DNA from: Clostridiales bacterium
GTDB taxonomy: Bacteria > Bacillota > Clostridia > Lachnospirales > Lachnospiraceae
Assembly: GCA_012520655.1 (NCBI GenBank)
Contig: JAAYNW010000052.1
Coordinates: 1-47,252 of the forward strand
Direction: 5' to 3'
DNA: 47,252 bases
A model generated the notes under the pieces. It was not told the origin of the DNA and did not search any database. It saw nothing but the letters and a program-made list of their open reading frames with translations. Positions 8,549-47,181 of the stretch are shown piece after piece. The number at the start of each line of letters is the position of its first letter. Position 1 is the first letter of the stretch. The position numbers and the translations under genes were made by a program.

Positions 8549-8587
8549 GATACGGTTGCCGGACTTTGGAAGGGAATGGTTGGGATT

Positions 8588-19768: not shown

Positions 19769-20779
19769 ATGGCAAGAAGAACATTATATGGAACCGTAAT
19801 CGTGACATACAGGTGCAATGCACGTTGCAATATGTGCGATTGCTTTAAAGATCCGACCAAACCGAGCGAAGAAATTACTCTGGAGGATATTAAGAAGCTT
19901 CCGGAAATGGCATTTACCAATATAACCGGAGGCGAGCCCTTCATCAGACAGGATATTCCTGATATCGTGCGGGAGCTTTATAAGAAGTCGGACCGGATTG
20001 TTATTTCTACAAATGGTTATTTCACGGATAGAATTATCGCTTTATGCAAAGAGTTTCCTAAGGTTGGAATACGCATAAGCATTGAAGGACTTCAGGAAAC
20101 CAACGATAAAATCCGCGGAATACCGGATGGCTTTAACAGGGGCTATAATACCTTGAAAACATTGGTGGAGATGAAGCATCCGGACGTAGGCTTCGGAATG
20201 ACGGTGCAGGATATGAACTGTCAAGATCTGGTGCCTCTTTATAATATATCTGACGGGCTGGGGATGGAGTTTGCTACGGCAACTTTGCACAATTCCTTTT
20301 ATTTTAGAAAGACGGATAATAAAATTGATAATAAATTAAAGGTAGCACAGAACTTTGAGAAGCTGATCAATGAGCTGTTAAAGAGTAAATCGCCGAAAAA
20401 GTGGTTTAGGGCGTACTTTAACCATGGATTGATCAATTATATATACGGAAACAAAAGGCTATTGCCTTGCGATATGTCGAGAAATGCATTTTTTATTGAT
20501 CCCTTCTGTGATGTCTTGCCCTGCAACGGTATGGAGAAGAAGGCAGTAATGGGAAACCTCAGAGAACAGACATGGGAAGAACTGTGGAATTCGAAGCAGG
20601 CGCAGGAAGTGCGGGTATGCACAAGAAACTGCGAGAGAAATTGCTGGATGATAGGAAGTGCATCGCCGGCTATGCACAAGTATATATGGGTACCCGGCTG
20701 GTGGGTGATTAAGCACAAGCTTTTTAAAGGCGGAAAGTACAGCCTGAAAGAAAATAAATTTATAGATAAAAGTTTATAA
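19769..20779 (+). CDS. Radical SAM protein with SPASM-like C-terminus
   Basis: The 336-residue protein has the radical SAM cluster CxxxCxxC at C16, C20 and C23. The SAM-binding NITGGEP lies at 51-57, and ISTNG and IRISIEGL strands follow. The C-terminal part carries six further cysteines (C234, C247, C252, C284, C288, C292) arranged as in SPASM/Twitch auxiliary iron-sulfur domains, plus MGNLREQTWEELWNS. The reaction is not predictable; relatives modify peptides, sugars or lipids by radical chemistry. Its position between a GT4 and a GT-D gene argues for a role in building or decorating the glycan, by inference only. No peptide substrate gene is visible nearby. GAGGAG precedes the start. Confidence 0.85.
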   Translation: MARRTLYGTVIVTYRCNARCNMCDCFKDPTKPSEEITLEDIKKLPEMAFTNITGGEPFIRQDIPDIVRELYKKSDRIVISTNGYFTDRIIALCKEFPKVGIRISIEGLQETNDKIRGIPDGFNRGYNTLKTLVEMKHPDVGFGMTVQDMNCQDLVPLYNISDGLGMEFATATLHNSFYFRKTDNKIDNKLKVAQNFEKLINELLKSKSPKKWFRAYFNHGLINYIYGNKRLLPCDMSRNAFFIDPFCDVLPCNGMEKKAVMGNLREQTWEELWNSKQAQEVRVCTRNCERNCWMIGSASPAMHKYIWVPGWWVIKHKLFKGGKYSLKENKFIDKSL

Positions 20780-23080: not shown

Positions 23081-23139
23081 TTTTTTCCACGATATCGGTA
23101 TAAGATACCATAATGAGATCACAGTAGAATCATTAATGA

Positions 23140-23168
23140 TTGTAATTATGATATTGATTGGATATAAT
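23140..23168 (+). promoter_or_regulatory. Sigma-A-type promoter before the ABC flippase
   Basis: TTGTAA (23140-23145) and a perfect TATAAT (23163-23168) are separated by 17 bases. The predicted start of transcription near 23175 lies upstream of ATG 23217 but downstream of ATG 23136, so it supports the shorter protein for the next gene. The hexamers and spacing equal those of the promoter at 29584, and both continue TTGTAATTAT. Confidence 0.7.
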
Positions 23169-23216
23169 GAAAATTGTCTGGTAAGATTTTCAATAGGAAA
23201 AAGATATGGAGAAACT

Positions 23217-24956
23217 ATGATTAAACAATTAAGCTACATTTTTAACAGAAGAGATAAGGTAAAAATAGTATTTATTTTATTTATGGTCATCGTGGGCAGC
23301 TTTTTTGAGCTGATGGGAGTAACTATTTTTATGCCTTTTATCCAGATACTTATGGATCCTGCTATAATAAAGGAAAACGTGTATCTTAAGTATTTTTACG
23401 AGTTATTTCATTTCAGCAACGAACAATATTTTTTGGCAGGATTGACGGGAGTAATTATATTTATATATATATTTAAAAATGCCTTTCTTGCGATAGAGAA
23501 AAATATTATTTACCGTTTTTGTTATAATACTCAGATGAATATGTCTACCAGATTATTGAAAGCATATATGAATAAGCCGTATACCTTCCATTTGAATAAG
23601 AACGTAGCCGAGTTGCAGCGCAGCATGCAGGAGGATACGGATTTATTTACGAAGGGAATCATTCATATACTGGAACTTATTATGGAAGTGACGGTCTGTG
23701 CAGTGCTTGCAATCTACTTATTTATTGTGAGCAAATCGATTGCCACGCTTGTGCTCGTAATGCTTGTGCTCTGCATAGGAGTATTTACTACCATATCTAA
23801 GAGGTATTCGATTAAACTCGGGCAGAGAAGCCAGAGATATAAAGGCAAGCTGTATCAGTGGATGAACCAGTCTTTGGGAGGCATCAAAGAAGTCAAAATC
23901 TTAAACAGAGAAGATTATTTTATCGATACCTACTCCGCTTATTTTGAGAAATACGTTCACGGTCTGAGGCTAAACCGTTTGATAGCCGAAATGCCAAGGT
24001 ATTTTGTAGAGGCTTCCTGCATGACAGGTATCCTGGTAGCGGTGCTGGTTAAGATGTTCTTTGGATATAACGATATTACCGTATATATTCCGCAGCTTGC
24101 GGTATTTGCGGTTGCTGCATTCAGGCTACTGCCGTCCGTCGGAAAAATCAATGTACATGTTGCGGATATTCTATACTCCCTTCCTTCCTTCGATTTAATC
24201 TATCATGACTTAAAGGAGATAGAAGGAACTCCGGAAAAGATAATTGATGGGAAAAAGGATTGGAATTTCGAGAAGGAAATACTTATTAAGGATGTAAGCT
24301 ATCGTTATCCCGATGCGGAAGAAAATGTCATCGACCATGCCGATTTTTCAATCGAGAAAGGCAAAACAATCGCATTTATCGGTTCATCCGGAGCAGGCAA
24401 AACGACTATGGTGGATATCATTTTAGGTTTGCTGCAGCCTCAGGAAGGAAGAGTATTGGCCGATGGTATGGATATTCACAGAAATCCGGACACATGGCAT
24501 TGCGAGCTCGGATATATACCTCAAGTAATATATTTGTCGGATGATACGATACGCAATAATATTGCATTCGGAGTACCTAAGGAGGAGATCTCTGATGAGG
24601 CCGTTATCACGGCTCTTAAGAGGGCTCAATTATACGATTTTATCCGGAATCTGCCGGACGGATTGGACACCTTTGTCGGAGACAGGGGAGTAAGGCTTTC
24701 GGGAGGTCAACGGCAGCGAATCGGTATAGCGAGAGCGCTTTATCATAATCCGGAGATTCTCGTACTGGACGAAGCTACTTCCGCCCTTGACAATGAGACG
24801 GAAGCAGCCGTAATGGAGGCGATTGAGAATCTTCAGGGAATGAAAACGATGATTATTATTGCCCACAGATTGACGACGATAAAAAATGTGGATGCAATTT
24901 ATGAGGTTGCCGGCGGTAAGGTATTACCTAAAGCAAAGGAAGAAGTATTTGGATAA
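23217..24956 (+). CDS. Half-size ABC transporter, lipid-linked oligosaccharide flippase (PglK/MsbA-like)
   Basis: The 579-residue protein has an N-terminal six-helix exporter domain (to about 330) and a nucleotide-binding domain. It carries Walker A GSSGAGKTT near residue 388, signature LSGGQRQ near 495, Walker B ILVLDEATSALD, and H-loop IIAHRLTTI. Early motifs SFFELMGVTIFMPFIQ and SLGGIKEVKILNRE match the PglK/WlaB flippase group, which moves polyprenyl-linked oligosaccharides outward using ATP. A longer frame opens at 23136. ATG 23217 is chosen because GGAG lies five bases upstream, the length is then normal, and the promoter places transcription start after 23136. It is a paralogue of the truncated transporter at the window start. 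Confidence 0.9.
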   Translation: MIKQLSYIFNRRDKVKIVFILFMVIVGSFFELMGVTIFMPFIQILMDPAIIKENVYLKYFYELFHFSNEQYFLAGLTGVIIFIYIFKNAFLAIEKNIIYRFCYNTQMNMSTRLLKAYMNKPYTFHLNKNVAELQRSMQEDTDLFTKGIIHILELIMEVTVCAVLAIYLFIVSKSIATLVLVMLVLCIGVFTTISKRYSIKLGQRSQRYKGKLYQWMNQSLGGIKEVKILNREDYFIDTYSAYFEKYVHGLRLNRLIAEMPRYFVEASCMTGILVAVLVKMFFGYNDITVYIPQLAVFAVAAFRLLPSVGKINVHVADILYSLPSFDLIYHDLKEIEGTPEKIIDGKKDWNFEKEILIKDVSYRYPDAEENVIDHADFSIEKGKTIAFIGSSGAGKTTMVDIILGLLQPQEGRVLADGMDIHRNPDTWHCELGYIPQVIYLSDDTIRNNIAFGVPKEEISDEAVITALKRAQLYDFIRNLPDGLDTFVGDRGVRLSGGQRQRIGIARALYHNPEILVLDEATSALDNETEAAVMEAIENLQGMKTMIIIAHRLTTIKNVDAIYEVAGGKVLPKAKEEVFG

Positions 24957-34236: not shown

Positions 34237-35280
<1,044 letters not shown>

Positions 35281-35345: not shown

Positions 35346-36287
35346 ATGAAGAAAGCAATGATTATTGGAGCGGCCGGATTTGTAGGCAATTATCTAATGG
35401 AATATTTAAGGAAGGAATGTAACATGGAGGTGCATGTTACAAAACTTCCGCGCGAAGAAATTCACAACAATTATTTGAAAGCGTATGATTTGGATATTCT
35501 GGATAAAGAAGCGATTGTTTCGCTACTGTTTGAAATCAGACCGGATTATATATTTCATCTTGCAGCACAAAGCTCTGTGGGTTTAGCATGGAAAAATCCG
35601 TGTTTGACAATCGATGTAAACATTAAAGGCAGTGTAAATGTTATGGATGCAATCCGTGAATTATACTATAAACCAAGAGTTATTTTAATCGGTTCGGGAG
35701 AAGAATACGGACATATTAACGAAGGAGAAACGCCTATTAAAGAAGGGAATATGATTCGTCCGGGGAATATATATGCCGCAACGAAGGTTTGTCAGAACAT
35801 GATTGGAAATATTTATGCCCAAGCTTACGATATGGAACTGATGATGGTGCGGGCCTTCAATCATATTGGGCCGACGCAAGCCCCCATGTTTGTAGTGGCA
35901 GACTTTTGCAAGCAGGTTGCAGAAATCGAAAAAGGAATAAGAGAGCCTGTAATATATGTCGGAAATCTGGAAGCAAAACGTGATTTTACGGATGTTAGGG
36001 ATGTAGTTCGAGCGTATGCTATGTTAATTGAAAAAGGCAAGGCCGGAGAAACCTACAATGTAGGAAGCGGGCATGCTGTATCTATCAGAAAGATATTGGA
36101 CTTGATTATTTTGTCATCGGGTAAGGATATTAAAGTGAAAATTGACCCTAATAAATTAAGGCCGGTAGATGTACCTATCATTGAAGCAGATACTACAAAG
36201 CTGCGAAATCTTACCGGTTGGAAGCCGGAGATAACCTTGGAACAGACAATTAAAGAAACGCTGGATTATTGGCGTGAAAGGGTATAA
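35346..36287 (+). CDS. rmd: GDP-4-keto-6-deoxy-D-mannose reductase (GDP-D-rhamnose forming)
   Basis: The 313-residue NAD-dependent epimerase/dehydratase-type protein has IIGAAGFVGNYLMEYL, FHLAAQSSVGLAWKNP, SGEEYG, and YAATKVCQNMIG with Y143 and K147. It also has RAFNHIGPTQAPMFVVADFCKQVA and YVGNLEAKRDFTDVRDVVRAY. The FNHIGP block and the VVADFCKQVAEIE stretch match Rmd, which reduces the Gmd product to GDP-D-rhamnose. They do not match the epimerase/reductase that makes GDP-L-fucose. It directly follows gmd, the usual pairing. A 6-deoxy-talose-forming reductase is a less likely alternative. Confidence 0.87.
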   Translation: MKKAMIIGAAGFVGNYLMEYLRKECNMEVHVTKLPREEIHNNYLKAYDLDILDKEAIVSLLFEIRPDYIFHLAAQSSVGLAWKNPCLTIDVNIKGSVNVMDAIRELYYKPRVILIGSGEEYGHINEGETPIKEGNMIRPGNIYAATKVCQNMIGNIYAQAYDMELMMVRAFNHIGPTQAPMFVVADFCKQVAEIEKGIREPVIYVGNLEAKRDFTDVRDVVRAYAMLIEKGKAGETYNVGSGHAVSIRKILDLIILSSGKDIKVKIDPNKLRPVDVPIIEADTTKLRNLTGWKPEITLEQTIKETLDYWRERV

Positions 36288-36301
36288 TGAGGTGATTGAC
36301 T

Positions 36302-37189
36302 ATGGGTGATATCAGTACATTATTTACAACGACAGGAATAACAGATTCCCAGAGAATGCTGCATACTCCCGGAGAATTTGCAAAGAAGAACTTATTTTAT
36401 GTGCAGGAAGTAGGAAAATTAAAAAGCTTGCAGCCGCATAAGTCACAGAGAGAAAAATTGGATTCTTTTTTATTTCTTGGCGTATTGAATGGTGCCGGGA
36501 CAATTACTATTGGAAATGCTGAGTATAAAGTAAAAAAAGGTCATTGCGCATGGATAAATTGTATGAATTATTATGCCCATGAAAGTAGTAAGGAGAAGCC
36601 TTGGGAGCTTATGTGGGTACATTTTAACGGAAATACTGCAAAAGAATATTTTGAATTATTCATGGAACAGAATGAGCAAAAGAATATTTTTGAGCCGGAA
36701 AGCTTGGAAGAATTGGAAAGGTTTATAAGCAAACTGATGGAATATCAGAAAGAAAAAGACTTGGAATCAGAGCTATTAAGTGGAAATATCCTGGGACAAT
36801 TGATGAATGCTTGCCTTTTTGCCGTCATGCATCGTGAAAGAGCAAATCAGCAAAAATATAAAAAGATGTGTAATGAAATAAGAGAGTGTGTTAACGAAAA
36901 ATATCGAGAGGAAGGACTGCTTCAGACTTTTGCAGATAGATATGGAATAGGTGAAGAGGAATTGGATACTTGTTTTCAAAAAACTTATGGCATAACACTG
37001 CGAGATTATATTGTAAATAGAAGATTTACGGCAGCAAAGGAACTGCTTCGATTTACGGTAAAGCCTATAAAAGAAATTATAGAAGAATCAGGTATAGGGA
37101 ATGATGATTTGTTTAGAAAGTTATTCCAGGACGGCGAGAAAATGACAGCAGAAGAATATCGGATGAAATGGTCACAGTGGGTAAAATAA
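36302..37189 (+). CDS. AraC-family transcriptional regulator (degenerate DNA-binding domain)
   Basis: The product is about 295 residues. The N-terminal half is a cupin-like ligand domain (FLFLGVLNGAGTITIGNAEYKVKKGHCAWINCMNYYAHE, in two segments). The C-terminal 100 residues have two helix-turn-helix units with AraC landmarks such as LQTFADRYGIGEEELDTCF, GITLRDYIVNRRFTAAKELL and ESGIGNDDLFRKLF. The landmark phenylalanine-rich second helix and the GYSxxxYF pattern are altered, so the DNA contacts may be unusual. ATG 36302 is chosen over TTG 36296, since GAGGTGA lies six bases before it. A sugar-responsive regulator inside the operon could sense a cell sugar or intermediate; this is inference. 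Confidence 0.8.
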   Translation: MGDISTLFTTTGITDSQRMLHTPGEFAKKNLFYVQEVGKLKSLQPHKSQREKLDSFLFLGVLNGAGTITIGNAEYKVKKGHCAWINCMNYYAHESSKEKPWELMWVHFNGNTAKEYFELFMEQNEQKNIFEPESLEELERFISKLMEYQKEKDLESELLSGNILGQLMNACLFAVMHRERANQQKYKKMCNEIRECVNEKYREEGLLQTFADRYGIGEEELDTCFQKTYGITLRDYIVNRRFTAAKELLRFTVKPIKEIIEESGIGNDDLFRKLFQDGEKMTAEEYRMKWSQWVK

Positions 37190-37222
37190 CGTGCAGATGT
37201 AACTTAAATGAGGTGAGACTAA

Positions 37223-38287
37223 GTGAAACTAGATATTAACTTTTATAAGGATAAGAAAATTCTGATAACAGGCCATACGGGGTTTAAAGGAAGTTGGATG
37301 TGTAAAGTGCTAACCGATGCGGGGGCAGTGGTAACCGGATATGCGTTAGAACCGCCCACAGATCCGAGCCTTTTTGAGATATGTGGTGTTGCAAATAAAA
37401 TGAAATCGATTTTAGGTGATGTACGGGATTTGGCGCATTTACAGCAAGTATTCAACGAAGAAAAACCTGAAATAGTCATTCATATGGCAGCTCAGCCGCT
37501 TGTACGCGATTCATATAAGAATCCTGTATATACATATGAAGTAAACGTAATGGGGACAGTAAATATACTTGAGTGTGTAAGAAATTCTTCTTCTGTAAAA
37601 TCATTTCTTAATGTAACAACGGATAAAGTATATTTGAACCACGAATGGGAATGGGGATATCGAGAGAATGAAGAATTAAACGGGTACGATCCATATTCTA
37701 ATTCAAAGTCGTGTTCTGAACTTGTTACAAGTAGTTTTAAAAATTCTTTTTTTGCAAATACCTCAATTGCAGTTTCAACCGCACGTGCCGGGAATGTTAT
37801 AGGTGGAGGTGATTTTGCAACGGATAGGATTATTCCTGATTGTATAAGAGCGGCCAGAGAAGGGAAGAAGATTGTTGTGCGCAATCCATATTCCACAAGG
37901 CCTTATGAACATGTTCTGGAGCCGATAATGGCTTATTTGATGATCTGTCAGGCGCAATATGAAGATATTTCCTATGCGGGTAGCTACAATGTAGGACCTG
38001 ATGAAACGGATTGTTGGACAACTGGTGATTTGGTCGCCCTATTTTGCGAGAAATGGAATGCCAAAACAGGGGAATCAATTGGCTGGAAAAATGAATATGA
38101 TGGTGGGCCGCATGAAGCTAATTTTTTGAAGCTTGACTGTTCTAAAATCAAGAAAACATTTAATTGGAAACCAAGATGGAATGTAGAAACAACTATGGAA
38201 AAGATTGTTGAATGGACAGAAGTATATTTGAGAGGGGAGAATATAGAAGATTGTATGGGACGGCAGATAAAAGAATTTTGCAAATAA
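37223..38287 (+). CDS. rfbG: CDP-glucose 4,6-dehydratase
   Basis: The 354-residue short-chain dehydrogenase has LITGHTGFKGSWMCKVL (17-25 core), HMAAQPLVRDSYKNP, VTTDKVYLN with D134/K135, YSNSKSCSELV with Y158/K162, TARAGNVIGGGDFATDRIIPD, RNPYSTRPYEHVLEP, and YNVGPDETDCWTTGDLV. GFKGSW and RPYEHVLEP are diagnostic for RfbG, which makes CDP-4-keto-6-deoxy-glucose, precursor of 3,6-dideoxyhexoses. The partner glucose-1-phosphate cytidylyltransferase (RfbF) and the next enzyme (RfbH or a reductase) are not in the window. The start is GTG with TGAGGTGAG upstream. It is the last gene before a 97-base gap and the exporter. Confidence 0.92.
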   Translation: MKLDINFYKDKKILITGHTGFKGSWMCKVLTDAGAVVTGYALEPPTDPSLFEICGVANKMKSILGDVRDLAHLQQVFNEEKPEIVIHMAAQPLVRDSYKNPVYTYEVNVMGTVNILECVRNSSSVKSFLNVTTDKVYLNHEWEWGYRENEELNGYDPYSNSKSCSELVTSSFKNSFFANTSIAVSTARAGNVIGGGDFATDRIIPDCIRAAREGKKIVVRNPYSTRPYEHVLEPIMAYLMICQAQYEDISYAGSYNVGPDETDCWTTGDLVALFCEKWNAKTGESIGWKNEYDGGPHEANFLKLDCSKIKKTFNWKPRWNVETTMEKIVEWTEVYLRGENIEDCMGRQIKEFCK

Positions 38288-38297
38288 GTTTAGGTAA

Positions 38298-38317
38298 TGG
38301 ATAAAATGATTTATCCA
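38298..38317. other. Eight-bp palindromic hairpin in the rfbG-wzm gap
   Basis: TGGATAAA (38298-38305) and TTTATCCA (38310-38317) pair perfectly around a four-base loop. No T tract follows on the plus strand, so it is not a plus-strand intrinsic terminator. It could be an operator or mRNA stability element. No convincing promoter was found in the rest of the 38288-38384 gap. Confidence 0.6.
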
Positions 38318-38384
38318 AAACTCTAGGGGGTGTTTTGGTCTGCCCTTATTTTAAGCCGCAATATGGAATTGAAAGGGAATATGA

Positions 38385-39173
38385 ATGCTTAAGGTACTAT
38401 ATAAAAACAATTATTTGCTGAGACAGTTAGTTAAAAAGGACATACAACAAAGATATCAGGGATCGGTGCTTGGAATGCTTTGGTCTTTTATTGTGCCGAT
38501 TTTGATGTTAATTATTTATACTTTCGTATTTAGTGAAGTATTTCAGGCAAAGTGGAATATAGACACTAGTAATAAATATGAATTTGCACTAGTTTTGTTT
38601 TGTGGATTAAGTGCTTTTAACCTTGTGGGCGAGGTAATGAACCGTGCCACGGTTCTGATAGCGATGAATACAAATTATGTTAAAAAGGTTATATTTCCTT
38701 TGGAGATACTTCCGGTGGTAGTAACGATATCTGCGCTATTTAATTGCGCAATCAGTTATATAATATTAATTGTAGCAAAATTGATTTTATATCATAATAT
38801 TTCTTCTACCCTTTACTTGATTTTCATAGCATTAGTACCGCTTGTGGTGATGTCTGTGGGGCTAGGTCTATTTATTTCAGCTCTTTCCGTATATTTAAAG
38901 GATGTTAGCAATATTATTTCAGTACTGGTTACAGTACTGATGTATATGAGTCCGGTTTTTTTCCCCCTATCTTCGGTGCCGGAGCGTTTTAGATTTATCT
39001 GTGAAGCAAATCCCATGACTTACATTATTGAAAACTTTAGAAATGTTGTGCTGTATGGGGAGTATATTAACTGGAAATTCTACGGAATTTCGTGCATAGT
39101 GGCGTTTGCGATTTACCTATTGGGGAAGGTGGTATTCATGCGGGCGAAGGAGGGATTTGCGGATGTCTTATAA
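38385..39173 (+). CDS. wzm: ABC-2 type polysaccharide export permease
   Basis: The 262-residue membrane protein has six hydrophobic segments. The N-terminal LVKKDIQQRYQGSVLGMLWSF is the characteristic cytoplasmic amphipathic stretch of Wzm/TagG/KpsM permeases, and PVFFPLSSVPERFRFICEANPMTYIIENFRNVVL is the conserved block near the end (given here as a region, about 202-236). With its ATPase it exports completed lipid-linked polysaccharide. In Gram-positives the same family also exports teichoic acids, so the cargo could be a wall polymer. The next gene begins 11 bases before this stop. Confidence 0.92.
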   Translation: MLKVLYKNNYLLRQLVKKDIQQRYQGSVLGMLWSFIVPILMLIIYTFVFSEVFQAKWNIDTSNKYEFALVLFCGLSAFNLVGEVMNRATVLIAMNTNYVKKVIFPLEILPVVVTISALFNCAISYIILIVAKLILYHNISSTLYLIFIALVPLVVMSVGLGLFISALSVYLKDVSNIISVLVTVLMYMSPVFFPLSSVPERFRFICEANPMTYIIENFRNVVLYGEYINWKFYGISCIVAFAIYLLGKVVFMRAKEGFADVL

Positions 39174-40545
39174 GACGGACGAAAAGGCAATAAGTGTAAG
39201 TCATGTGTCAAAGGTATATAAAATTTTTGATACGCCGGGGAAAAGATTTCTTTATCATATGTTTCACACTAATGACGGAAAAGATTTTGTTGCATTAAAT
39301 GATGTAAGTTTTCAAGTGAAAAAAGGAGAGGCCTTTGGTATCATAGGTCGTAATGGTAGTGGTAAGAGTACTATGCTACAAATATTGGCAGGTATCATTA
39401 AAGCAACTACGGGAAACGTTGAAATAAATGGAAGGGTTGCTGCTTTGCTAGAACTTGGAAGTGGTTTTAATCCGGAAAGCACCGGATATGAAAATATTTA
39501 TATGAATGCCGCTATACTGGGAGTATCGAAGGAGGAAATTGAAGGAAAAATTGCTCGGATAGTGGAATTCGCTGATATAGGAGATTTTGTTAATCAACCC
39601 GTCAAGACGTATTCTAGCGGTATGTTTGTAAGGCTTGCTTTTTCGGTGGCTATCAATGTAGATGCAGACATTCTACTGATTGATGAAGCATTGGCTGTGG
39701 GAGATGTTTTTTTTCGGCAAAAATGTTATACAAAATTAAATCAATTAAAAAAAGAGGGTAAAACAATTATTCTGGTAAGTCATGGAATGAATGAGGTAGA
39801 GCAATTTTGTGATAGGGTATTACTGCTTAACAAGTCAAATGTGTTAATGTGCGGAGATGCCAGAGAAGCAGTACAAAGGTATTATATGCTCGAACAGGAG
39901 TCAAACGCAAGTAAACAAGAAGATGAGTTTCGAGTTGACCATGATGATAATATAGAGAATTTTGAATGCAAAACAGCCTTTGACAGATGGCATAGGTTAG
40001 AAAGTAGTAATTTTAACTGTATAATTAATTACGAAAGCGAAATAAATAATGGTAAAGTTAAATTTTTACGAGTAGGGATATTTAATGAAAATGGTCAGGA
40101 GAGTAAAGTTTTTCAACAAGGAGAAAATGCTTATTTTCTTTATGAAATCGAGGTTCTTCATGATATAAAGACGCCGATTGCAGGTATTGTTTTTTATGAT
40201 CAGCGCAACACAATTGTATTTGGAAAAGATAATCTACAGACATACACGAAGGTTCCGGAACATGTAAAAAAGGGAAGTGTAGTTAGATGTCTTTTCAAGA
40301 TTAAAATGGATATTGCAATAGGGGAATATACGTTTGATGCAGGTTTTAATTCAATAAATAGTGAAGACTATTTCTCCAGAAGTAATAAAAAACAAGAAGA
40401 AATAAACGAAGCTCGTGAAATTTTATGTGCGCTTTCTAATGTAGGTAGTTTTTCCGTTCATGAGAGAGCAGTAGGGAAACCAATGAAAATTATGTTTCAT
40501 GGATGTTGTGATTTACCAAGTGATGTAGAAATGATAGTAAACTAA
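39163..40545 (+). CDS. wzt: Polysaccharide export ATPase with C-terminal glycan-binding extension
   Basis: The 461-residue protein has an N-terminal ABC domain with Walker A GRNGSGKST at 62-70, signature YSSGM near 150-154, Walker B ILLIDEALAVGD, and H-loop SHG near 206. Beyond about residue 285 a beta-rich domain follows (KFLRVGIFNENGQ, QGENAYFLYEIEVL, GIVFYDQRN, YTFDAGFNS). Wzt proteins with such an extension recognise a chemically marked non-reducing end of the polymer before export. Those without it do not. The frame opens at 39106, but ATG 39163 is preceded by GAAGGAGGG at nine bases and begins the conserved part. The neighbouring coiled-coil methyltransferase is a natural candidate for writing the mark. 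Confidence 0.92.
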   Translation: MSYKTDEKAISVSHVSKVYKIFDTPGKRFLYHMFHTNDGKDFVALNDVSFQVKKGEAFGIIGRNGSGKSTMLQILAGIIKATTGNVEINGRVAALLELGSGFNPESTGYENIYMNAAILGVSKEEIEGKIARIVEFADIGDFVNQPVKTYSSGMFVRLAFSVAINVDADILLIDEALAVGDVFFRQKCYTKLNQLKKEGKTIILVSHGMNEVEQFCDRVLLLNKSNVLMCGDAREAVQRYYMLEQESNASKQEDEFRVDHDDNIENFECKTAFDRWHRLESSNFNCIINYESEINNGKVKFLRVGIFNENGQESKVFQQGENAYFLYEIEVLHDIKTPIAGIVFYDQRNTIVFGKDNLQTYTKVPEHVKKGSVVRCLFKIKMDIAIGEYTFDAGFNSINSEDYFSRSNKKQEEINEAREILCALSNVGSFSVHERAVGKPMKIMFHGCCDLPSDVEMIVN

Positions 40546-40577
40546 GGCGTAATCTTGAAACTCAGAAAGGGAGAACA

Positions 40578-41852
40578 ATGGACAAGTGCTGGTGTGGCAA
40601 TGATAAACTGAAAGAATATTCTAAAAACTATTTTTTGTGTAGTGAATGTAAATCTTTAGTTTCCAAAAAAGCATTTGAAGACAGCATATACCATGTAGAA
40701 GATGAGAATGATGACTTGTATGGGGAAAACTACTGGGAAGAAGTAATGACCAAAGAGGCCGGTGTTAATTCTACGGATGAAATTATTGATTTATATCTTC
40801 ATGAAAGAGGAATTTACTGGTTAAAATATATTGTTAAGTATTTTCCGTTCAACAGCAAAGTTGCTGAAATCGGTTGTGGACTTGGACAGTTATCTTATTT
40901 GATGAAAATGCTTGGATATCAGCAGATTGCATATGAATTGAGTCCTGCTATATGTAAATATGTTAAAAACAAGTTAAACATTAACATTGTATGCCAGACT
41001 TTTGGAAAAGGAAATGAAAAGTATGATGCTATTGTTGCAATGGATGTATTTGAGCATATCTTAAATCCGCAAGAATTTCTCGGTGAATGCTCGGAACACA
41101 TAACAGATAAAGGAATATTGTGCTTACAAACTCCATGCTATGATGAAACGTTGACTTATGATAAAATGCGTTGTGAAAAACCGCGTTTTGAAAAACTAAT
41201 GGTCGAAGAACAGCACATTTTTATTTATAGTAAGAAATCTATTACACAAATTTTAGAAAGCTACGGATTTTATGAGATTATCTTTGAACCGGCTTTCTTT
41301 GGTAATGATTACGACATGTTTTTGTTTGCATCTAAAGAAAAAATTAGTGTAAATTCCGCGGAAGAGATTGATAATCATTTTAACCATGTAGAAAGCGGAA
41401 GATTAATAAAAGCAATGTTAACTCTGTTTGATGCTAATAGGGAATTAGAATTATGCTATCAAACAGCAGATGCAGACCGTAGTTCCCGCTTGGAGCAAAT
41501 CGAAGAGCTAACGAAGATGCTGAAAGAAAGTGAAAAAGACCGAGAGGCGCGTCTGGGAGAAATAAATGATTTGACGCGAATGGTGCAGGAGTGCGAAAAG
41601 GACCGAGAGGCGCGCCTGGGAGAAATAAGTAAACTGACACAAATGCTGCAGGAAAGCGAAAAGGACCGAGAGGCGCGTTTGAAGCAGATAAATGAACTGA
41701 CGCGAATGCTGCAGGAAAGCGAAAAGGACAGAGAGATGCGTTTGAAGCAAATAAATGAACTGACGCGAATGCTGCAGGAAAGTGAGGCAGACCGTGAAGC
41801 GCGTCTTAATCAAATTAATACACTTACTGAAATGTTATATAAAAAAAGATGA
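40578..41852 (+). CDS. SAM-dependent methyltransferase with six-repeat coiled-coil tail (possible chain terminator and ruler)
   Basis: The 424-residue protein starts with a possible zinc knuckle (C4, C6, C21, C24). It continues with a class I methyltransferase domain: VAEIGCGLGQLSYLMKMLGY at about 95-114, AIVAMDVFEHILNPQEFL, GILCLQTPCYDE. From residue 298 to 423 it consists of six 21-residue repeats, each three heptads, of the form EKDREARLxEIxxLTxMLQES, strongly predicted as coiled coil. The domain order methyltransferase then coiled coil, next to a Wzt with a binding domain, recalls WbdD of E. coli O9a. There the enzyme caps the chain and the coiled coil sets its length. No kinase domain is seen here. 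Function as terminator is inference. Alternatives are methylation of an internal sugar with a scaffold tail. Confidence 0.85.
   Translation: MDKCWCGNDKLKEYSKNYFLCSECKSLVSKKAFEDSIYHVEDENDDLYGENYWEEVMTKEAGVNSTDEIIDLYLHERGIYWLKYIVKYFPFNSKVAEIGCGLGQLSYLMKMLGYQQIAYELSPAICKYVKNKLNINIVCQTFGKGNEKYDAIVAMDVFEHILNPQEFLGECSEHITDKGILCLQTPCYDETLTYDKMRCEKPRFEKLMVEEQHIFIYSKKSITQILESYGFYEIIFEPAFFGNDYDMFLFASKEKISVNSAEEIDNHFNHVESGRLIKAMLTLFDANRELELCYQTADADRSSRLEQIEELTKMLKESEKDREARLGEINDLTRMVQECEKDREARLGEISKLTQMLQESEKDREARLKQINELTRMLQESEKDREMRLKQINELTRMLQESEADREARLNQINTLTEMLYKKR
41469..41846 (+). repeat. Six tandem 63-bp coding repeats
   Basis: The units begin at 41469, 41532, 41595, 41658, 41721 and 41784. Units 2-5 are very similar at DNA level (for example GAAAAGGACCGAGAGGCGCG starts unit 3 and almost exactly units 2 and 4); unit 1 is the most diverged and unit 6 is a tail variant. 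All are in frame, so gain or loss of units by recombination or slippage would lengthen or shorten the coiled coil by 21 residues without breaking the gene. The repeats are richer in G and C than the sequence around them. Confidence 0.93.
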
Positions 41853-41882
41853 GAAGAATACTATTTTTTTGAGGTGGGAAAG

Positions 41883-43406
41883 ATGAAGATTGCAGTAGAT
41901 GTGCTATCAATTAGACCGGACGGAAGCGCGGGTGGGGCGATGGGTTTTGCGTTGGAATTAATTAAAGGGTTTGCAGCAAAACCAGATATTCAGGTTCTGG
42001 TATTGTGCGCAGACTGGAATATTAGTTATTTAAAAGGATTATTACCAAAGAATATTCAGTACTATCAAGTATTGGGTGAATATAAATTAACGGGTATCGG
42101 CCGAATTGATAGAATAGTTGATCGTATCAGACAGAAAATATACTCAAATTCGGTTTTAAAAAAGAATAATGTGGATGTTTTGTACTGTCCGTTTAGTGCT
42201 GCCACATATAAAGAAAAAGGAATTCCGACAGTGAGTACTATTCTTGATATTCAACATGAATACTACCCGCAGTTTTTTGAGCCACAAGAGTTGGCTCACA
42301 GGCGTAAGTTTTATCATAGCATTGTAAAGAAAGTAGAACGAGTCGTGTGTATTTCAGACTATACTAAGGAAACCTTTTGCGAGAAGTATAAATTTCCGTT
42401 GGATAGGGCTCAGACAATTTATATTGCAATACAAAATCGCTTTTTTAAACAAGATGATAAGGTTTTAGATAAGTTAAATTTACGAGGTCAAGAGTATATT
42501 GTATATCCTGCAAACTTTTGGGAACATAAAAACCATAAGCTTCTCTTAAATGCTTTTGCAATGTATCGATATGAGAATAAGTATCTAAAATTAGTACTGA
42601 CCGGGAATCCGTTAGAGCAGTCTACATATTATAATAACTTACTTAAGGCCATGAAGATAGATGAGTGCACAGTAATTACTGGGTATGTTACAGATGAAGA
42701 ATTGTATAGTATTTTGAAAAATGCGAAAGGACTTATCTACCCAAGCTTATTTGAAGGTTTTGGAATTCCAATTGTTGAAGCGATGCATTTACATAAGTTG
42801 ATTGCCTGTAGCAATCTGACGAGCCTTCCGGAAATTGGATGTGATGCAATTTTTTATTTTAATCCGAAGAAACCAGATGATATATTGGCAGGAATTAGGT
42901 ATTTGGCAGAAAATGAAATGACGAATGATATTATACAACAGTATGAGACGAAACTGAATGATTACAAAACTGAAAAGATGGTAGAAGAATATTTGAAGGT
43001 ACTGAAAGATGTAGTCAGCAAGAAGGAGGCTTTGGTTTTTCAGGAAGAAGTTATAGGAGTATATCCCGACGGATGGAGCACTCCCGAAATTGTCATACAG
43101 TTGAAGGATAGAGAAGACAGTATTCTCAGGGGGAAAATTATTTTACCCGAATTTACTGGGATGAAAATGAAAATTTTGTTAGAAAATAATGGAAAACGGA
43201 GGCAAATATTATTAAAATCAGGTGATTCAATTGAACTAGAAGAAAAAATCACTAGTAATTGTGCAACGGTAATATTGCGCATGAGTAAAACATGGTCTCC
43301 TCAAGAAGTCTTAAAAAACAACGATGTCAGAGAACTGGGAGTATTCTTAGAAGATTTAAAACTTGAAACAGCGGATGAGATGATAGAAGTAAAAAATTTG
43401 GTATAA
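41883..43406 (+). CDS. Family 4 glycosyltransferase with C-terminal beta-rich accessory domain
   Basis: The product is about 507 residues, roughly 125 longer than a normal GT4. The catalytic part has IAVDVLSIRPDGSAGGAMGF, STILDIQHEYYPQFF, VVCISDYTKETF, YPANFWEHKNHKLLL, and the signature LFEGFGIPIVEAM. From about residue 385, after KEALVFQEE, comes VIGVYPDGWSTPEIVIQLKD and alternating hydrophobic strands to the end. This tail is probably a separate beta-sandwich, perhaps for glycan binding or placing the acceptor. GTG 41874 opens the frame, but ATG 41883 has GAGGTG six bases before it. It directly follows the coiled-coil methyltransferase, suggesting they work on the same chain. Confidence 0.85.
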   Translation: MKIAVDVLSIRPDGSAGGAMGFALELIKGFAAKPDIQVLVLCADWNISYLKGLLPKNIQYYQVLGEYKLTGIGRIDRIVDRIRQKIYSNSVLKKNNVDVLYCPFSAATYKEKGIPTVSTILDIQHEYYPQFFEPQELAHRRKFYHSIVKKVERVVCISDYTKETFCEKYKFPLDRAQTIYIAIQNRFFKQDDKVLDKLNLRGQEYIVYPANFWEHKNHKLLLNAFAMYRYENKYLKLVLTGNPLEQSTYYNNLLKAMKIDECTVITGYVTDEELYSILKNAKGLIYPSLFEGFGIPIVEAMHLHKLIACSNLTSLPEIGCDAIFYFNPKKPDDILAGIRYLAENEMTNDIIQQYETKLNDYKTEKMVEEYLKVLKDVVSKKEALVFQEEVIGVYPDGWSTPEIVIQLKDREDSILRGKIILPEFTGMKMKILLENNGKRRQILLKSGDSIELEEKITSNCATVILRMSKTWSPQEVLKNNDVRELGVFLEDLKLETADEMIEVKNLV

Positions 43407-43421
43407 ATAGAGGCTAAAAAC

Positions 43422-44288
43422 ATGAAAATTACAGTGGTAACTCCTTCCTATAATCAAGGAGTTTTTATAAAGAGAACTATAGAAAGCGTGCTATCCCAAG
43501 GAATAGATGATTTGGAATACATTATCATGGATGGTGGGAGTACGGATGAAACTGTGGATATCCTAAAAGAATATGGAGATAAGATTATCTGGAAAAGCGA
43601 AAAAGATAAGGGGCAGACAGATGCTGTAAACAAAGGAATTAGAGCGGCACATGGAGAAATCATTGGATGGCTCAATTCGGATGATATCTATTATCCTAAT
43701 GCAATTAAGAAGGTTATGGAGGTATTTGAAAACCATCCGGAAATTAATGTAGTATATGGAAATGCAAATCACATTAATGAAGATGACATTTTTATTGAAG
43801 AGTATTATACAGAAGATTTTGATTATGAAAGATTAAAAGATATCTGCTTTATATGCCAGCCGTCTTTGTTTTTCAGAAAGAAGCTGGTAGATAAATATGG
43901 ATTTTTGGATGATAAATTGCAGTATTGTATGGATTATGATTATTGGCTTCGTCTGGGGAAAGGAGAGAGATTCTATCGTTTAAATGAATTGATAGCCGGA
44001 TCCAGATTATATGATGATAATAAGACATTAGGAGCGCGGAGAAAAGTACATGAAGAAATGCTGACTATGCAGGAAAAAAATTTTGGAAAGGCATCGGAAA
44101 GATGGGTCTATAATTTAGCGCATGTGATTGTGGATGAAATGGGAATTCCCAGAATAAAGAATGAGAGATCAAATCCGGAGTTTGTTAAGACGTTAGCTAA
44201 GGTATCGACAAAAGAATTTTTAAAGCATTATAAATATATTCCTTGGAATGTGATGAAGAATATTGTTGGATGGTATTTTCAAAAATAA
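43422..44288 (+). CDS. Family 2 glycosyltransferase (WcaA-like)
   Basis: The 288-residue GT-A enzyme has ITVVTPSYNQGVFIKRTIES, MDGGSTDET at 36-44, KGQTDAVNKGI, the metal site WLNSDDIYY at 83-91, CQPSLFFRKKLV, and CMDYDYWLRLGKG. It shares this exact motif set with the GT2 at 33232. It sits between two GT4 genes in the exporter module and probably adds one of the sugars of the exported chain. Gaps of 15 and 27 bases to its neighbours indicate one operon. Confidence 0.88.
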   Translation: MKITVVTPSYNQGVFIKRTIESVLSQGIDDLEYIIMDGGSTDETVDILKEYGDKIIWKSEKDKGQTDAVNKGIRAAHGEIIGWLNSDDIYYPNAIKKVMEVFENHPEINVVYGNANHINEDDIFIEEYYTEDFDYERLKDICFICQPSLFFRKKLVDKYGFLDDKLQYCMDYDYWLRLGKGERFYRLNELIAGSRLYDDNKTLGARRKVHEEMLTMQEKNFGKASERWVYNLAHVIVDEMGIPRIKNERSNPEFVKTLAKVSTKEFLKHYKYIPWNVMKNIVGWYFQK

Positions 44289-44315
44289 TTAAAATCGGTT
44301 GAAAGGGGAGTATGA

Positions 44316-45419
44316 ATGAAGATTGGATTTGATATTAGCCAGACGTGCGAGAGCAAGTCCGGTACAGGATTTTATGCGGATCAAATGATACGGGCACTTG
44401 CTCATGTAGATAATGAAAATGAGTACACACTTTTGCCGTGGTTTTATGATTATAGACCACAGACATTGGATAATGCAACGAAGATTAATAGGGAGAATTT
44501 TGAAGAAAAAGTCCTTAAGAGGTTTAGCGATGAAGAAAATGCTATGAAAAGGCTTGATATAATACATTCTAATAACTTTCGCTTTCCCAAAGATGTTTCA
44601 GCAAAGAAAGTGGTAACCTTATATGATGTATGTTTTTTAGACCATCCGGAATATACGACTGAAGCTAATAGACTTTTTTGCTATAAGGGAACATTGGACT
44701 CTATGCTGTTTGCGGATAAGATAATTGCTATATCTGAGTACACAAAAAAACGTCTGCTTTATTTTTTCCCGTTTGTGGATGAAAAGAAGGTAGAGGTGGT
44801 GTATTGTGGCAATAGAGATACGTTGCTAAAAGAGAAAGATGATGAATCGCTCATTAAAAGGTACGGTTTGAAGAAGGACGAGTATTATTTATCGGTGGGA
44901 ACAATAGAACCTAGGAAAAATTATACCACATTATTACAAGCATACAAGATTTATAAGGAAAAAAATCGGGACTATAAAAAACTGTGTATTGCAGGTGGGT
45001 ATGGCTGGATGGAAGAGAACTTTAAACATAGGATTGTGGAATTGGGGTTAACGCAAGATGTCGTAGTTACAGGCTATGTTACAGATGCAGAGTTATCCAA
45101 TTTATACCGTTATTGTTTTGGATTTGTTTATCCCACTTGGTATGAGGGGTTTGGACTACCGGTTTTGGAAGCGATGAACTTCAGAAAACCGGTTATTGCA
45201 AGCAGAGTATCTAGTATTCCGGAAATCACGGGAGATAGTGCTATTTTAGTTTCTCCCGGAGAATGCGAAGAAATTGTTAATGGGATGCTTTATCTGGAAG
45301 CCTCGGATGAAAGGTATTCGAGTATTATTAACAAAGGATATGAGCAAACCAGAAAATTTTCTTGGATAAAGTCAGCGAATCAATTATTCGACATATATAA
45401 ACAAATTATACTGATTTGA
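44316..45419 (+). CDS. Family 4 glycosyltransferase
   Basis: The 367-residue GT-B enzyme has KIGFDISQTCESKSGTGFYA at the start, VVTLYDVCFLDHPEY, IIAISEYTKKRLLYFFP, and VEVVYCGNRD. The donor half begins LSVGTIEPRKNYTTLLQAYK. The signature is TWYEGFGLPVLEAM, then ASRVSSIPEITGDSAIL. This is the mannosyltransferase-like (WbaZ/MtfB-type) form of GT4. Together with a GDP-D-rhamnose pathway upstream it may act as a D-rhamnosyl- or mannosyl-transferase; this is inference. GAAAGGGGAG precedes the start. It ends the exporter module. Confidence 0.87.
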   Translation: MKIGFDISQTCESKSGTGFYADQMIRALAHVDNENEYTLLPWFYDYRPQTLDNATKINRENFEEKVLKRFSDEENAMKRLDIIHSNNFRFPKDVSAKKVVTLYDVCFLDHPEYTTEANRLFCYKGTLDSMLFADKIIAISEYTKKRLLYFFPFVDEKKVEVVYCGNRDTLLKEKDDESLIKRYGLKKDEYYLSVGTIEPRKNYTTLLQAYKIYKEKNRDYKKLCIAGGYGWMEENFKHRIVELGLTQDVVVTGYVTDAELSNLYRYCFGFVYPTWYEGFGLPVLEAMNFRKPVIASRVSSIPEITGDSAILVSPGECEEIVNGMLYLEASDERYSSIINKGYEQTRKFSWIKSANQLFDIYKQIILI

Positions 45420-45703
45420 AGCATAATGCCAAAAATAACTTCATTAAGTAAGATTCTTTTAGCACTAAACTATTATGTTAAATTAATGGTGCTATTTAGT
45501 TAAGTCCCATGTATGTTGTTTTTTTAAGATATATCTGATAATATAGTGAACATGTATGTCATTATAAATCTATAGTTATGAATCTATAATTTATTTAGAG
45601 GTTAGATTACTTTGCAAAAATAAATTTGTAAACAATTATTTTATGCTAAATATTGTCTGCCAGACTTTAAGGTTAAAACGTAAAAATTAAAGGAGTTTTG
45701 ATT
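45420..45703. other. AT-rich intergenic region without a convincing gene
   Basis: This is the longest non-coding stretch. A dyad TAGCAC/GTGCTA (45460-45465 and 45489-45494) has no T tract after it. The octamer AATCTATA occurs twice (45567-45574 and 45581-45588). TATAAT is present at 45585-45590, but its -35 candidate (TTATAA, 17 bases upstream) is poor. A promoter for the last gene is likely here but cannot be placed with confidence. A strong ribosome site (AGGAG, 45691-45695) ends the region. Confidence 0.6.
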
Positions 45704-45745
45704 ATGCCAAGCAATTTGGACATAATTCAAAGATTTAGAGTATGA
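45704..45745 (+). CDS. 13-codon leader open reading frame, ATGA-coupled to the next gene
   Basis: ATG 45704 has AGGAG eight bases upstream, the best ribosome site in this area. It encodes MPSNLDIIQRFRV and stops at TGA 45743-45745, which overlaps the ATG (45742) of the membrane protein as ATGA. The long gene has no ribosome site of its own beyond the leader sequence. Its translation would thus depend on ribosomes finishing the leader. It could also be a relic of a longer N-terminus after a frameshift, since the two frames differ. Confidence 0.5.
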   Translation: MPSNLDIIQRFRV

Positions 45746-47181
45746 TTTTGAGTGTTATAATATCATTTATTTTAAAATTAATTATTGTATTACTGATAGG
45801 GTTATGGTTCTATAAAATAAATAAAAACGTAATTGAGTCTTTGGTTTGCGGTTGGCTTTTGATGTATGAGCTCCAAATAGCATTAATGTTGTTTTTCTCT
45901 TGTTTTAAGATAATGAACAGATGGTGGCTTGGGTTTGGATTAATAGTCATTATTGTTATGCTTTTCTTAGTACAAAGAAAGAGAATATTTGATGCATTAT
46001 ATTATCTAACCCAAAGGCTGAAAGAAGGTCATCAGTACGACTATATCATTTGGGGTGGCGCAATATTACTCTTTATTTATGTGGCGGCACATAACTTCTT
46101 ATTTTTCGATGGAACGTGGGATGCACACACGTATGAGCTGCCGCGAATTGAATTTTTTTCACAAAAAGCGTCGTTATTTGTAAATATGAAAAGTGGTGCT
46201 TTAAATATATTTTGTAATGAATGGAACGGGGAACTGAATGGTATATTTTATAGAATAATGGGGAATGAAAATCAAGGAATCTTTTTTTCCAATACGGAAA
46301 ATTTTTTCTATGGTCTTTTTGTTGTATGGTGGTTTGCTGAGAAAATCGGTATAAATAGATTAGGTAGAGGTATTTCCTTGCTTTTCTATTGTAGCTTCCC
46401 AGTTATTGTTTTTATGTCGATGTCTTCTAAAGGCGATTTCCTTGCAATAGTACTCTTTTTATGTGTAACAATTTGGCTAAAAGAATTTTTATATTCAGAG
46501 ACAGGTTATTCTTTATTGTTTTTGGCTATTTCACTCGGTTTAGCAGCAGGTACTAAAATTACAATGGTTCCATTTGCCGGATTATGTTTTATTAGTATAT
46601 GTATTTATTTTTTGATGAAATTCAAAGTAGAAGTAAAAAGATATGTTACATTAATAAAAAAAACATGGAAATCTATTGTGCTTGGAGTGCTATTAAGCGT
46701 GGTGGGTTGTTTTAGGTATGTTCTGAATTATATATACTTTGGAGATTTTTTTCAAAGAGTTGAATCGGTAAATATTTCTTTTAAAAATATAAAATCTTCA
46801 TTTTTAGAAATGTTAAAAACTATTCTATTCCCTGATAATGCATTTATACATGCCGATATTATAGAGTCGTTAAATCAGGATTTGGGAATAGTAGGATTTC
46901 CATTTATCATTATGCTTTTACCAGTAGTTATATTGTGGTGTATGATGAGTATTTTAAGGGAACCCAAAAGAAAGATGGATTATAAGATATTATTTATTTT
47001 ATTTCCGACAGTGGGGAGTTGCTTTTTTTTAATGGCTTCCACAAATTGGTATAGCTGGTCTTTTCGGTATTATACACCTTGGATATGTACTTTATTTATC
47101 GTGTTCGTGTTATTAGTACAGGACATAATTTCAGCTTTACCTATGACATGCAAAAAACTGATATTAGGAGCGGTCAGATAG
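45742..47181 (+). CDS. GT-C type membrane glycosyltransferase
   Basis: The 479-residue polytopic membrane protein has about 11 hydrophobic segments. After the third helix the outer loop contains FFDGTWDAHTYELPRIEFFSQ, whose D-x-x-x-Y-x-L-P-R pattern resembles bacterial GT-C enzymes with a WDxxTYHLPR motif. SSKGDFLAIVLFL and GLAAGTKITMVPF also fit that group. It would transfer a sugar from a polyprenyl-phosphate donor outside the membrane. The start overlaps the leader stop (ATGA). A strong terminator follows, so it forms its own unit or the end of the locus. The donor-making enzyme is not in the window. Confidence 0.72.
   Translation: MILSVIISFILKLIIVLLIGLWFYKINKNVIESLVCGWLLMYELQIALMLFFSCFKIMNRWWLGFGLIVIIVMLFLVQRKRIFDALYYLTQRLKEGHQYDYIIWGGAILLFIYVAAHNFLFFDGTWDAHTYELPRIEFFSQKASLFVNMKSGALNIFCNEWNGELNGIFYRIMGNENQGIFFSNTENFFYGLFVVWWFAEKIGINRLGRGISLLFYCSFPVIVFMSMSSKGDFLAIVLFLCVTIWLKEFLYSETGYSLLFLAISLGLAAGTKITMVPFAGLCFISICIYFLMKFKVEVKRYVTLIKKTWKSIVLGVLLSVVGCFRYVLNYIYFGDFFQRVESVNISFKNIKSSFLEMLKTILFPDNAFIHADIIESLNQDLGIVGFPFIIMLLPVVILWCMMSILREPKRKMDYKILFILFPTVGSCFFLMASTNWYSWSFRYYTPWICTLFIVFVLLVQDIISALPMTCKKLILGAVR

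Follow-up and report, generated by a model that had tools for sequence, protein, structure and literature searches.

How does a bacterium that probably has no outer membrane set the length of a polysaccharide exported through an ABC transporter? This question is raised by a locus of a Clostridiales bacterium of the Lachnospiraceae (assembly GCA_012520655.1, contig JAAYNW010000052.1). The whole stretch analysed, here termed the window, comprises 47,252 nucleotides and corresponds to contig C19 of a 2.85 Mb assembly with a completeness of 94.6%. Between positions 38385 and 41852, three successive genes on the + strand encode the permease Wzm, the ATPase Wzt and a coiled-coil methyltransferase (MTcc). 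A first-pass annotation made from the sequence alone had noticed this trio of permease, ATPase with extension and methyltransferase, and the families PF01061, PF00005 plus PF14524, and PF13489 were indeed found there. With modest confidence, we favour a mechanism in which a surface polysaccharide is first capped and then exported, its length being gated by the coiled-coil methyltransferase. Searches of the same assembly yielded no match for the outer-membrane markers LpxC and Omp85, two for Spo0A and one for LytR-CpsA-Psr (LCP). This is most naturally read as a lineage of spore-formers that has no outer membrane; the annotation, too, had supposed that an outer membrane is probably lacking.

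Wzm, Wzt and the coiled-coil methyltransferase

The wzm gene (38385-39173, +) encodes an ABC-2 permease of 262 aa (PF01061 ABC2_membrane, E 4.8e-29). It adjoins wzt (39163-40545, +), whose product of 460 aa combines an ATPase (PF00005, E 3e-21) with a C-terminal Wzt_C domain (PF14524, E 6.9e-20), the cap-binding-type core of which lies at 40036-40368 (+). The start codon ATG 39163, which overlaps the end of wzm, suits the homologues and the onset of similarity better than 39106, the listed start of the open reading frame (ORF). An ABC-2 permease adjoining an ATPase with C-terminal Wzt_C is the gene set of ABC-dependent, cap-recognising export. The best match of Wzt among solved structures is 8dku (E 2.2e-72). 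With the tail alone, phmmer found four significant chains among solved structures: 8dky (E 1.4e-4), 6o14 (1.9e-4), 7k2t and 8dku (2.3e-4 each). We take 8dky and 8dku to be deposits of the paper on Aquifex aeolicus Wzt. 6O14 and 7K2T are A. aeolicus Wzt, too (PMC9445017). The carbohydrate-binding domain (CBD) of this protein binds 3-O-methyl-D-mannose, not mannose, and the A. aeolicus polymer consists of D-Rha and D-Man with a 3-O-methyl cap (PMC9445017). The annotation had suggested that the window Wzt tail be compared with known carbohydrate-binding domains; judged by sequence search, it belongs to the Wzt_C family and is homologous to the A. aeolicus cap-binding domain. A. aeolicus Gln230 and Tyr233, the latter touching the glycan, align with Gln238 and Tyr241 of the window protein, if the published numbering is shifted by one against the chain index, as worked out in this analysis.

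MTcc (40578-41852, +) is a 424 aa protein and the proposed chain terminator; its homologues are L003/L095 and L032. It starts with a zinc-ribbon-like cluster, Cys4-Cys6-Cys21-Cys24 (40587-40649, +), which is invariant in the alignment of three homologues and may bind zinc. A class I S-adenosylmethionine-dependent methyltransferase domain follows at residues 84-231 (40827-41270, +; PF13489 Methyltransf_23, E 2.8e-18). For residues 272-423 (41391-41846, +), AlphaFold2 predicts a single helix of 152 residues, a putative coiled-coil spacer with a computed length of ~226 angstrom if straight. The input was an alignment of two sequences, the window and L032 proteins; the block-mean predicted local distance difference test (pLDDT) was 74-89 across residues 301-420 and lower on both sides. 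A methyltransferase domain with an extended predicted coiled coil, encoded after wzt in an export cluster, is the architecture of coiled-coil chain terminators.

The helix contains a tandem array of 63-bp/21-aa units (41487-41849, +). The annotation had counted six 21-residue repeats. The 21-residue coiled-coil array stands, but it consists of five complete units followed by 16 residues of an incomplete sixth (residues 304-424). The self-identity of residues 290-424 amounts to 0.66 at offset 21 and 0.62 at offset 42 and does not exceed 0.15 at all other offsets between 5 and 49. Tandem Repeats Finder (TRF) reports 4.8 copies of 63 bp, and adjacent full units are 67-84% identical at the DNA level. 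These repeats are not chance. Each unit contains RLxxI(E/N/S) once, at residues 304, 325, 346, 367, 388 and 409, with E in only one of the six. A known trimer motif is R-h-x-x-h-E. The RLxxI(E/N/S) steps resemble it; MTcc may be a trimer. The protein ends with LTEMLYKKR immediately after the repeats, and reading on in frame past the stop codon leads to nothing but the beginning of the following gene. With a G+C content of 0.449 (41487-41849), the array stands apart from the methyltransferase domain (0.33) and wzt (0.343), as if it had a separate origin or were under a different codon pressure.

Full-length relatives of MTcc are rare. Among 98 relatives searched, the own genome included, one other genome (G072), which belongs to another family of the order, is matched over the full length (E 1e-60). 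The remaining matches cover part of the methyltransferase domain only, with E 1.6e-7 as the best value within the genus. In 391 genomes of the class, none but the window itself passes E 1e-15. A scan of genome contigs with narrow patterns added one relative from a Phycisphaerales metagenome-assembled genome (MAG; L032), two viral scans yielded no relative, and plasmids one weak partial match. A profile search in 398 genomes of the phylum at E 1e-15 hit 29, including the window's own genome. The best of the other phylum matches, L164, shows by eye neither a coiled coil nor a Wzt across the 3.8 kb read.

The gene order in the window is gmd, rmd-like, AraC, CDP-glucose dehydratase, wzm, wzt, MTcc, GT4 and GT2 (glycosyltransferases, GT, of families 4 and 2). 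In G072, gmd (78% identical) is directly followed by rmd (45%), then by another gene, wzm (48%), wzt (49%), MTcc (33%) and a fused GT4-GT2. In L032, wzm (38%), wzt (43%), another methyltransferase, MTcc (29%), GT2, a fused GT4-GT2 and gmd (49%) succeed each other. The window GT4 (41883-43406) and the corresponding portion of the fused G072 protein are 29% identical, and the window GT2 (43422-44288) shares 50% and 44% with the GT2 parts of the fused proteins in G072 and L032, respectively. The wzm-wzt-MTcc module recurs in two distant lineages. The order proposed for a search in related genomes is thus conserved in both, with the extra methyltransferase between wzt and MTcc in L032, and both full-length homologues are located at Wzm-Wzt export loci, although these are two cases only. 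The Wzt of L032 (5167-7383) carries an extra C-terminal part of ~240 residues that looks sulfotransferase-like by eye.

In both homologues, the repeat unit is 28 residues long, exactly one heptad more than the 21 residues of the window unit. Similarly, gaps in the full-length alignments are mostly exactly seven residues long, and a DRxxRL step is common to most units. At the DNA level, the array was found in one of the 98 genomes at E 0.001, the window's own. A change in copy number is unproven, because array searches in these genomes revealed no strain variants in repeat number.

Wzt_C loci in the order

PF14524 is present in 133 of 392 genomes of the order. The CBD-bearing sample drawn from them is non-random: below 125 bits, it includes all non-window matches but one (45 of 46; G707, a contig fragment, was excluded), and from the 103 higher-scoring rows, by our count, 15. 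From these 60 loci and the window itself, two were dropped, L066 because no Wzt was found there and L067 because its contig ends after Wzt, so that 59 loci remained. L032, where a wrong frame had been taken, was excluded from the counts. Forty of the top NF050108 matches with short frames served as CBD-less control. Coiled coils were called by a home-made detector with rules tried out on the window protein and its two homologues and a run cut-off of 80 residues chosen after the first table; it gives false positives (L106 looks like a secreted protein), and the statistics ignore kinship.

In CBD-bearing loci, coiled-coil runs of at least 80 aa were found in 18/59 cases at position +1 and in 9/58 at +2 relative to wzt. 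This means 27/117 at +1/+2 versus 1/331 at -4 to -1 and +3 to +5 (Fisher p 3e-16). In the 27 proteins beside Wzt, the runs detected are 81 to 193 residues long. A methyltransferase domain is present in 19 of the 27 (13 PF13489, five PF13578 or Methyltransf_24, one FkbM), a count of this analysis which assumes that the PF13489 and PF13578 sets do not overlap. The CBD-less control showed coiled coils in 6/40 cases at +1, 1/39 at +2, 1/37 each at +3 and +4, 0/35 at +5 and none at -4 to -1. Methyltransf_23 occurs at +1 in 25/59 CBD-bearing and 3/40 CBD-less loci (Fisher p 1e-4). Within this sample, methyltransferases are thus firmly linked to Wzt proteins that bear a CBD. Coiled coils are linked to such Wzt proteins as well, though not exclusively.

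Two groups of genes after Wzt attracted attention in the same order. In L111 (5652-7049), L112 (5159-9382), L121 (9358-12999) and L083 (3945-8015), a kinase-like module with an IDYEWxFDF-type motif was seen by eye, separate or fused, with a coiled coil and near or fused to a methyltransferase. Pfam named no kinase in the genes of these four loci, which recall the methylphosphate terminator of Klebsiella pneumoniae O7. In L086, L088, L090, L091 and L097, Wzt is directly followed by a methyltransferase that measures 383-425 aa and includes a long coiled coil. Methyltransf_24 was found for L088, and the five-locus set was assigned to it by likeness. In L088, L090, L091 and L097, where the next gene is complete, a protein of 1014-1016 aa follows. 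These methyltransferases are candidates for a second kind of terminator.

How chain length may be set

Escherichia coli O8 WbdD has no kinase and methylates the sugar directly (PMC3482155), so the kinase-less logic that the annotation had regarded as new is already known. The window locus resembles O8 WbdD with its Wzm/Wzt in three elements: a kinase-less methyltransferase, which caps the chain in O8 and would do so here, a Wzt with a C-terminal domain of the cap-reading type, and Wzm. An extended coiled coil is shared with WbdD proteins including the O9a kinase-methyltransferase (PMC3482155, PMC11231755). In contrast to WbdD, the window protein has regular 21-residue repeats, would act in a cell without outer membrane and lacks a C-terminal polymerase recruitment or amphipathic membrane region (PMC11231755). 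Hence, the O9a-like ruler-and-cap system first proposed is found as far as Wzm, Wzt with CBD and the coiled-coil methyltransferase are concerned, but without a counterpart of the WbdD docking region. In K. pneumoniae O7 ORF6 and O12 WbbB, too, a coiled coil sets the terminator module apart in an ABC-dependent system (PMC11231755). These proteins differ by fused glycosyltransferase modules and by methylphosphate (O7) or 3-deoxy-D-manno-oct-2-ulosonic acid (Kdo; O12) as cap. The termination strategy has been called widespread across the bacterial kingdom (PMC11231755, citing other work). A. aeolicus Wzm-Wzt contains the best solved match of the window Wzt, and its polymer would fit a D-rhamnose route with gmd and a reductase. 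However, A. aeolicus is a lipopolysaccharide-bearing bacterium, its sugar-contact residues differ, and the main text of PMC9445017 does not contain the words methyltransferase or coiled-coil.

A Gram-positive wzm-wzt-methyltransferase set is known from the S-layer glycan cluster of Geobacillus stearothermophilus NRS 2004/3a, where wzm, wzt and wsaE overlap and the terminal rhamnose is 2-O-methylated (PMC2943079). The methylated chain is predicted to be recognised by Wzt and exported by Wzm-Wzt (PMC2943079, PMC3898925). In this cluster, WsaE is a methyltransferase fused to two rhamnosyltransferase domains, L-rhamnose from dTDP-rhamnose is used (PMC3898925), and no ruler was shown. Such a set is thus not new to Gram-positives, whereas for Clostridia no description of such a set was found in a literature search that included few subscription papers. 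Thermoanaerobacterium thermosaccharolyticum is a relative of clostridia. Its S-layer glycan cluster is listed in PMC2943079.

In the mechanism we favour, GT4 and GT2 enzymes would extend a lipid-linked chain at the cytoplasmic face, perhaps fed with GDP-D-rhamnose by gmd and the rmd-like gene. The polymer perhaps contains D-rhamnose, as this gene pair, kept together in G072, suggests. The helical coiled coil, up to ~226 angstrom long, would hold the methyltransferase apart from the polymerase. Once the chain is long enough to reach the active site, its non-reducing end would be O-methylated and growth would stop. The Wzt C-terminal domain would recognise the methylated end and Wzm-Wzt export the chain, which, in a cell without outer membrane, may then be fixed to wall, protein or lipid. 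As no further region follows the array, the protein would have to dock by the coiled-coil end itself. That this end might bind the C-terminal extension which the GT4 (41883-43406) carries is speculation.

Several results weigh against a length-gated cap. The AlphaFold2 models obtained with two-sequence alignments are of low confidence for the methyltransferase domain (block-mean pLDDT 34-67) and the Wzt tail (26-60). An rmd-like gene is absent from the L032 stretch examined, so the gmd/rmd pair was not seen in the MAG. A. aeolicus sugar contacts are not kept in the window Wzt: Asn313 is replaced by Asp, and His350, just beyond the aligned stretch, would be replaced by Asn. Therefore, the window sugar or cap may differ from that of A. 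aeolicus. Among 46 solved matches of the methyltransferase profile (E 0.001), no chain is named WbdD; the O8 WbdD sequence was not among the comparisons. Full-length methyltransferase homologues number only two. The array alone, used as protein, matched 1/98 genomes at E 1e-8, the window's own, and no relative, G072 included; the case for common descent of the repeats thus depends on full-length alignments with gaps. CBD-less Wzt, too, is followed by long coiled coils (7/40 versus 26/59 CBD-bearing loci at +1/+2, p 0.009; 6/40 versus 18/59 at +1 alone, p 0.10). Since at least three of these CBD-less coiled-coil proteins are methyltransferases (L123 according to Pfam, L143 and L157 according to the profile), the pairing of coiled coil and methyltransferase does not need a CBD. 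Finally, the coiled coil is not followed by the docking or membrane region typical of the WbdD family, and G. stearothermophilus WsaE methylates independently of chain length in vitro (PMC2943079).

The last two points speak for a cap that works without a ruler. In this case, the methyltransferase would terminate and the CBD read the cap, while the coiled coil would only oligomerise or scaffold the enzyme to the glycosyltransferases, and enzyme ratios would set the length. The lack of relatives of the array alone and the CBD-less methyltransferase coiled coils led us to give this explanation more weight and the ruler less. Still, it is a minor possibility: the repeat units measure whole heptads, the coiled coils beside Wzt vary widely in length, as a spacer would allow, and WbdD and WbbB are precedents for spacing (PMC11231755). 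Another explanation, internal decoration, would have the methyltransferase modify residues along the chain and the Wzt tail read an ordinary repeat-unit epitope. That the A. aeolicus cap contacts are not kept would agree with it. Methyltransferases often decorate polysaccharides. Nevertheless, decoration is improbable here, since Methyltransf_23 is tied to Wzt proteins with a CBD rather than to those without one; further arguments against it are the long coiled coil and the wzm-wzt-MTcc linkage in both homologues. Slightly more improbable is a nucleotide-sugar methyltransferase that makes a C-methyl branched sugar together with the upstream CDP-glucose 4,6-dehydratase (37223-38287). This dehydratase and the N-terminal Cys cluster point in that direction, as does TcaB9, a sugar methyltransferase that the profile matches weakly (E 0.0006). 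The TcaB9/TylC3 type is defined by the Pfam C-methyltransferase families. However, neither their N- nor their C-terminal domain was found at E 0.1, the dehydratase has no clear counterpart in the examined stretches of both homologous clusters, where it only cross-matches gmd at 25%, and the coiled coil would be left without a role.

As a specific subfamily, the window set is rare; similar sets look common in the order. We tentatively suggest, as a possibility that is far from assured, that bacteria without outer membrane, this order included, commonly set glycan length with coiled-coil ruler terminators encoded after a cap-reading Wzt. The window locus would be the plainest case, with a ruler that changes by whole 21-residue (three-heptad) DNA repeats. 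If so, chain length could evolve in fixed steps with the catalytic head untouched. Length control by cap and ruler has been described mainly for the O antigens of Gram-negative bacteria. Should it work here, the length of one coiled coil could serve to predict, and to test, how long surface polymers are across a large Clostridia-like group. With their similarity, the 63-bp units are a clean experimental handle, and the wider pattern in the order deserves a proper survey.

Neighbouring genes

The gmd, rmd-like, GT4 and GT2 genes around wzm-wzt-MTcc lie on the + strand. Upstream, gmd (34249-35280) encodes a GDP-mannose 4,6-dehydratase (TIGR01472, 474.7 bits at a cut-off of 415). The rmd-like gene (35346-36287) encodes a short-chain dehydrogenase/reductase (PF16363, E 3.1e-65), probably a GDP-4-keto-6-deoxymannose reductase, for which no NCBIfam model scored above its cut-off. 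Downstream, the GT4 glycosyltransferase with the C-terminal extension (41883-43406, ORF listed from GTG 41874; PF00534, E 1.7e-22), the GT2 (43422-44288; PF00535, E 5.9e-31) and another GT4 (44316-45419; PF00534, E 6.9e-32) follow each other. A scan of 36000-46000 for promoters and terminators yielded chance level only.

An AraC-type regulator gene (36296-37189) is situated within the run of sugar-nucleotide genes. The CDP-glucose 4,6-dehydratase gene (37223-38287; TIGR02622 above cut-off) lies directly upstream of wzm; a CDP-glucose synthase was not noticed beside it, and no search aimed at one was made. Positions 1-28100 of the window form a second, large glycan cluster with a Bac_transf initiator (8576-10000), two GT11, one GT17 and a GT-D fold protein. 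It contains PF00664-type ABC exporters at 12-1250, apparently truncated by the contig end, and at 23136-24956. In addition, it encodes a GH88-family protein (13328-14395) and a radical SAM/SPASM protein (19769-20779). Elsewhere in this genome lies another Wzt_C exporter with a higher score (G000:C50:19813, L108), which adjoins a methyltransferase protein of 704 aa. The sole LCP gene found is located on the same contig as this exporter, ~13 kb away.

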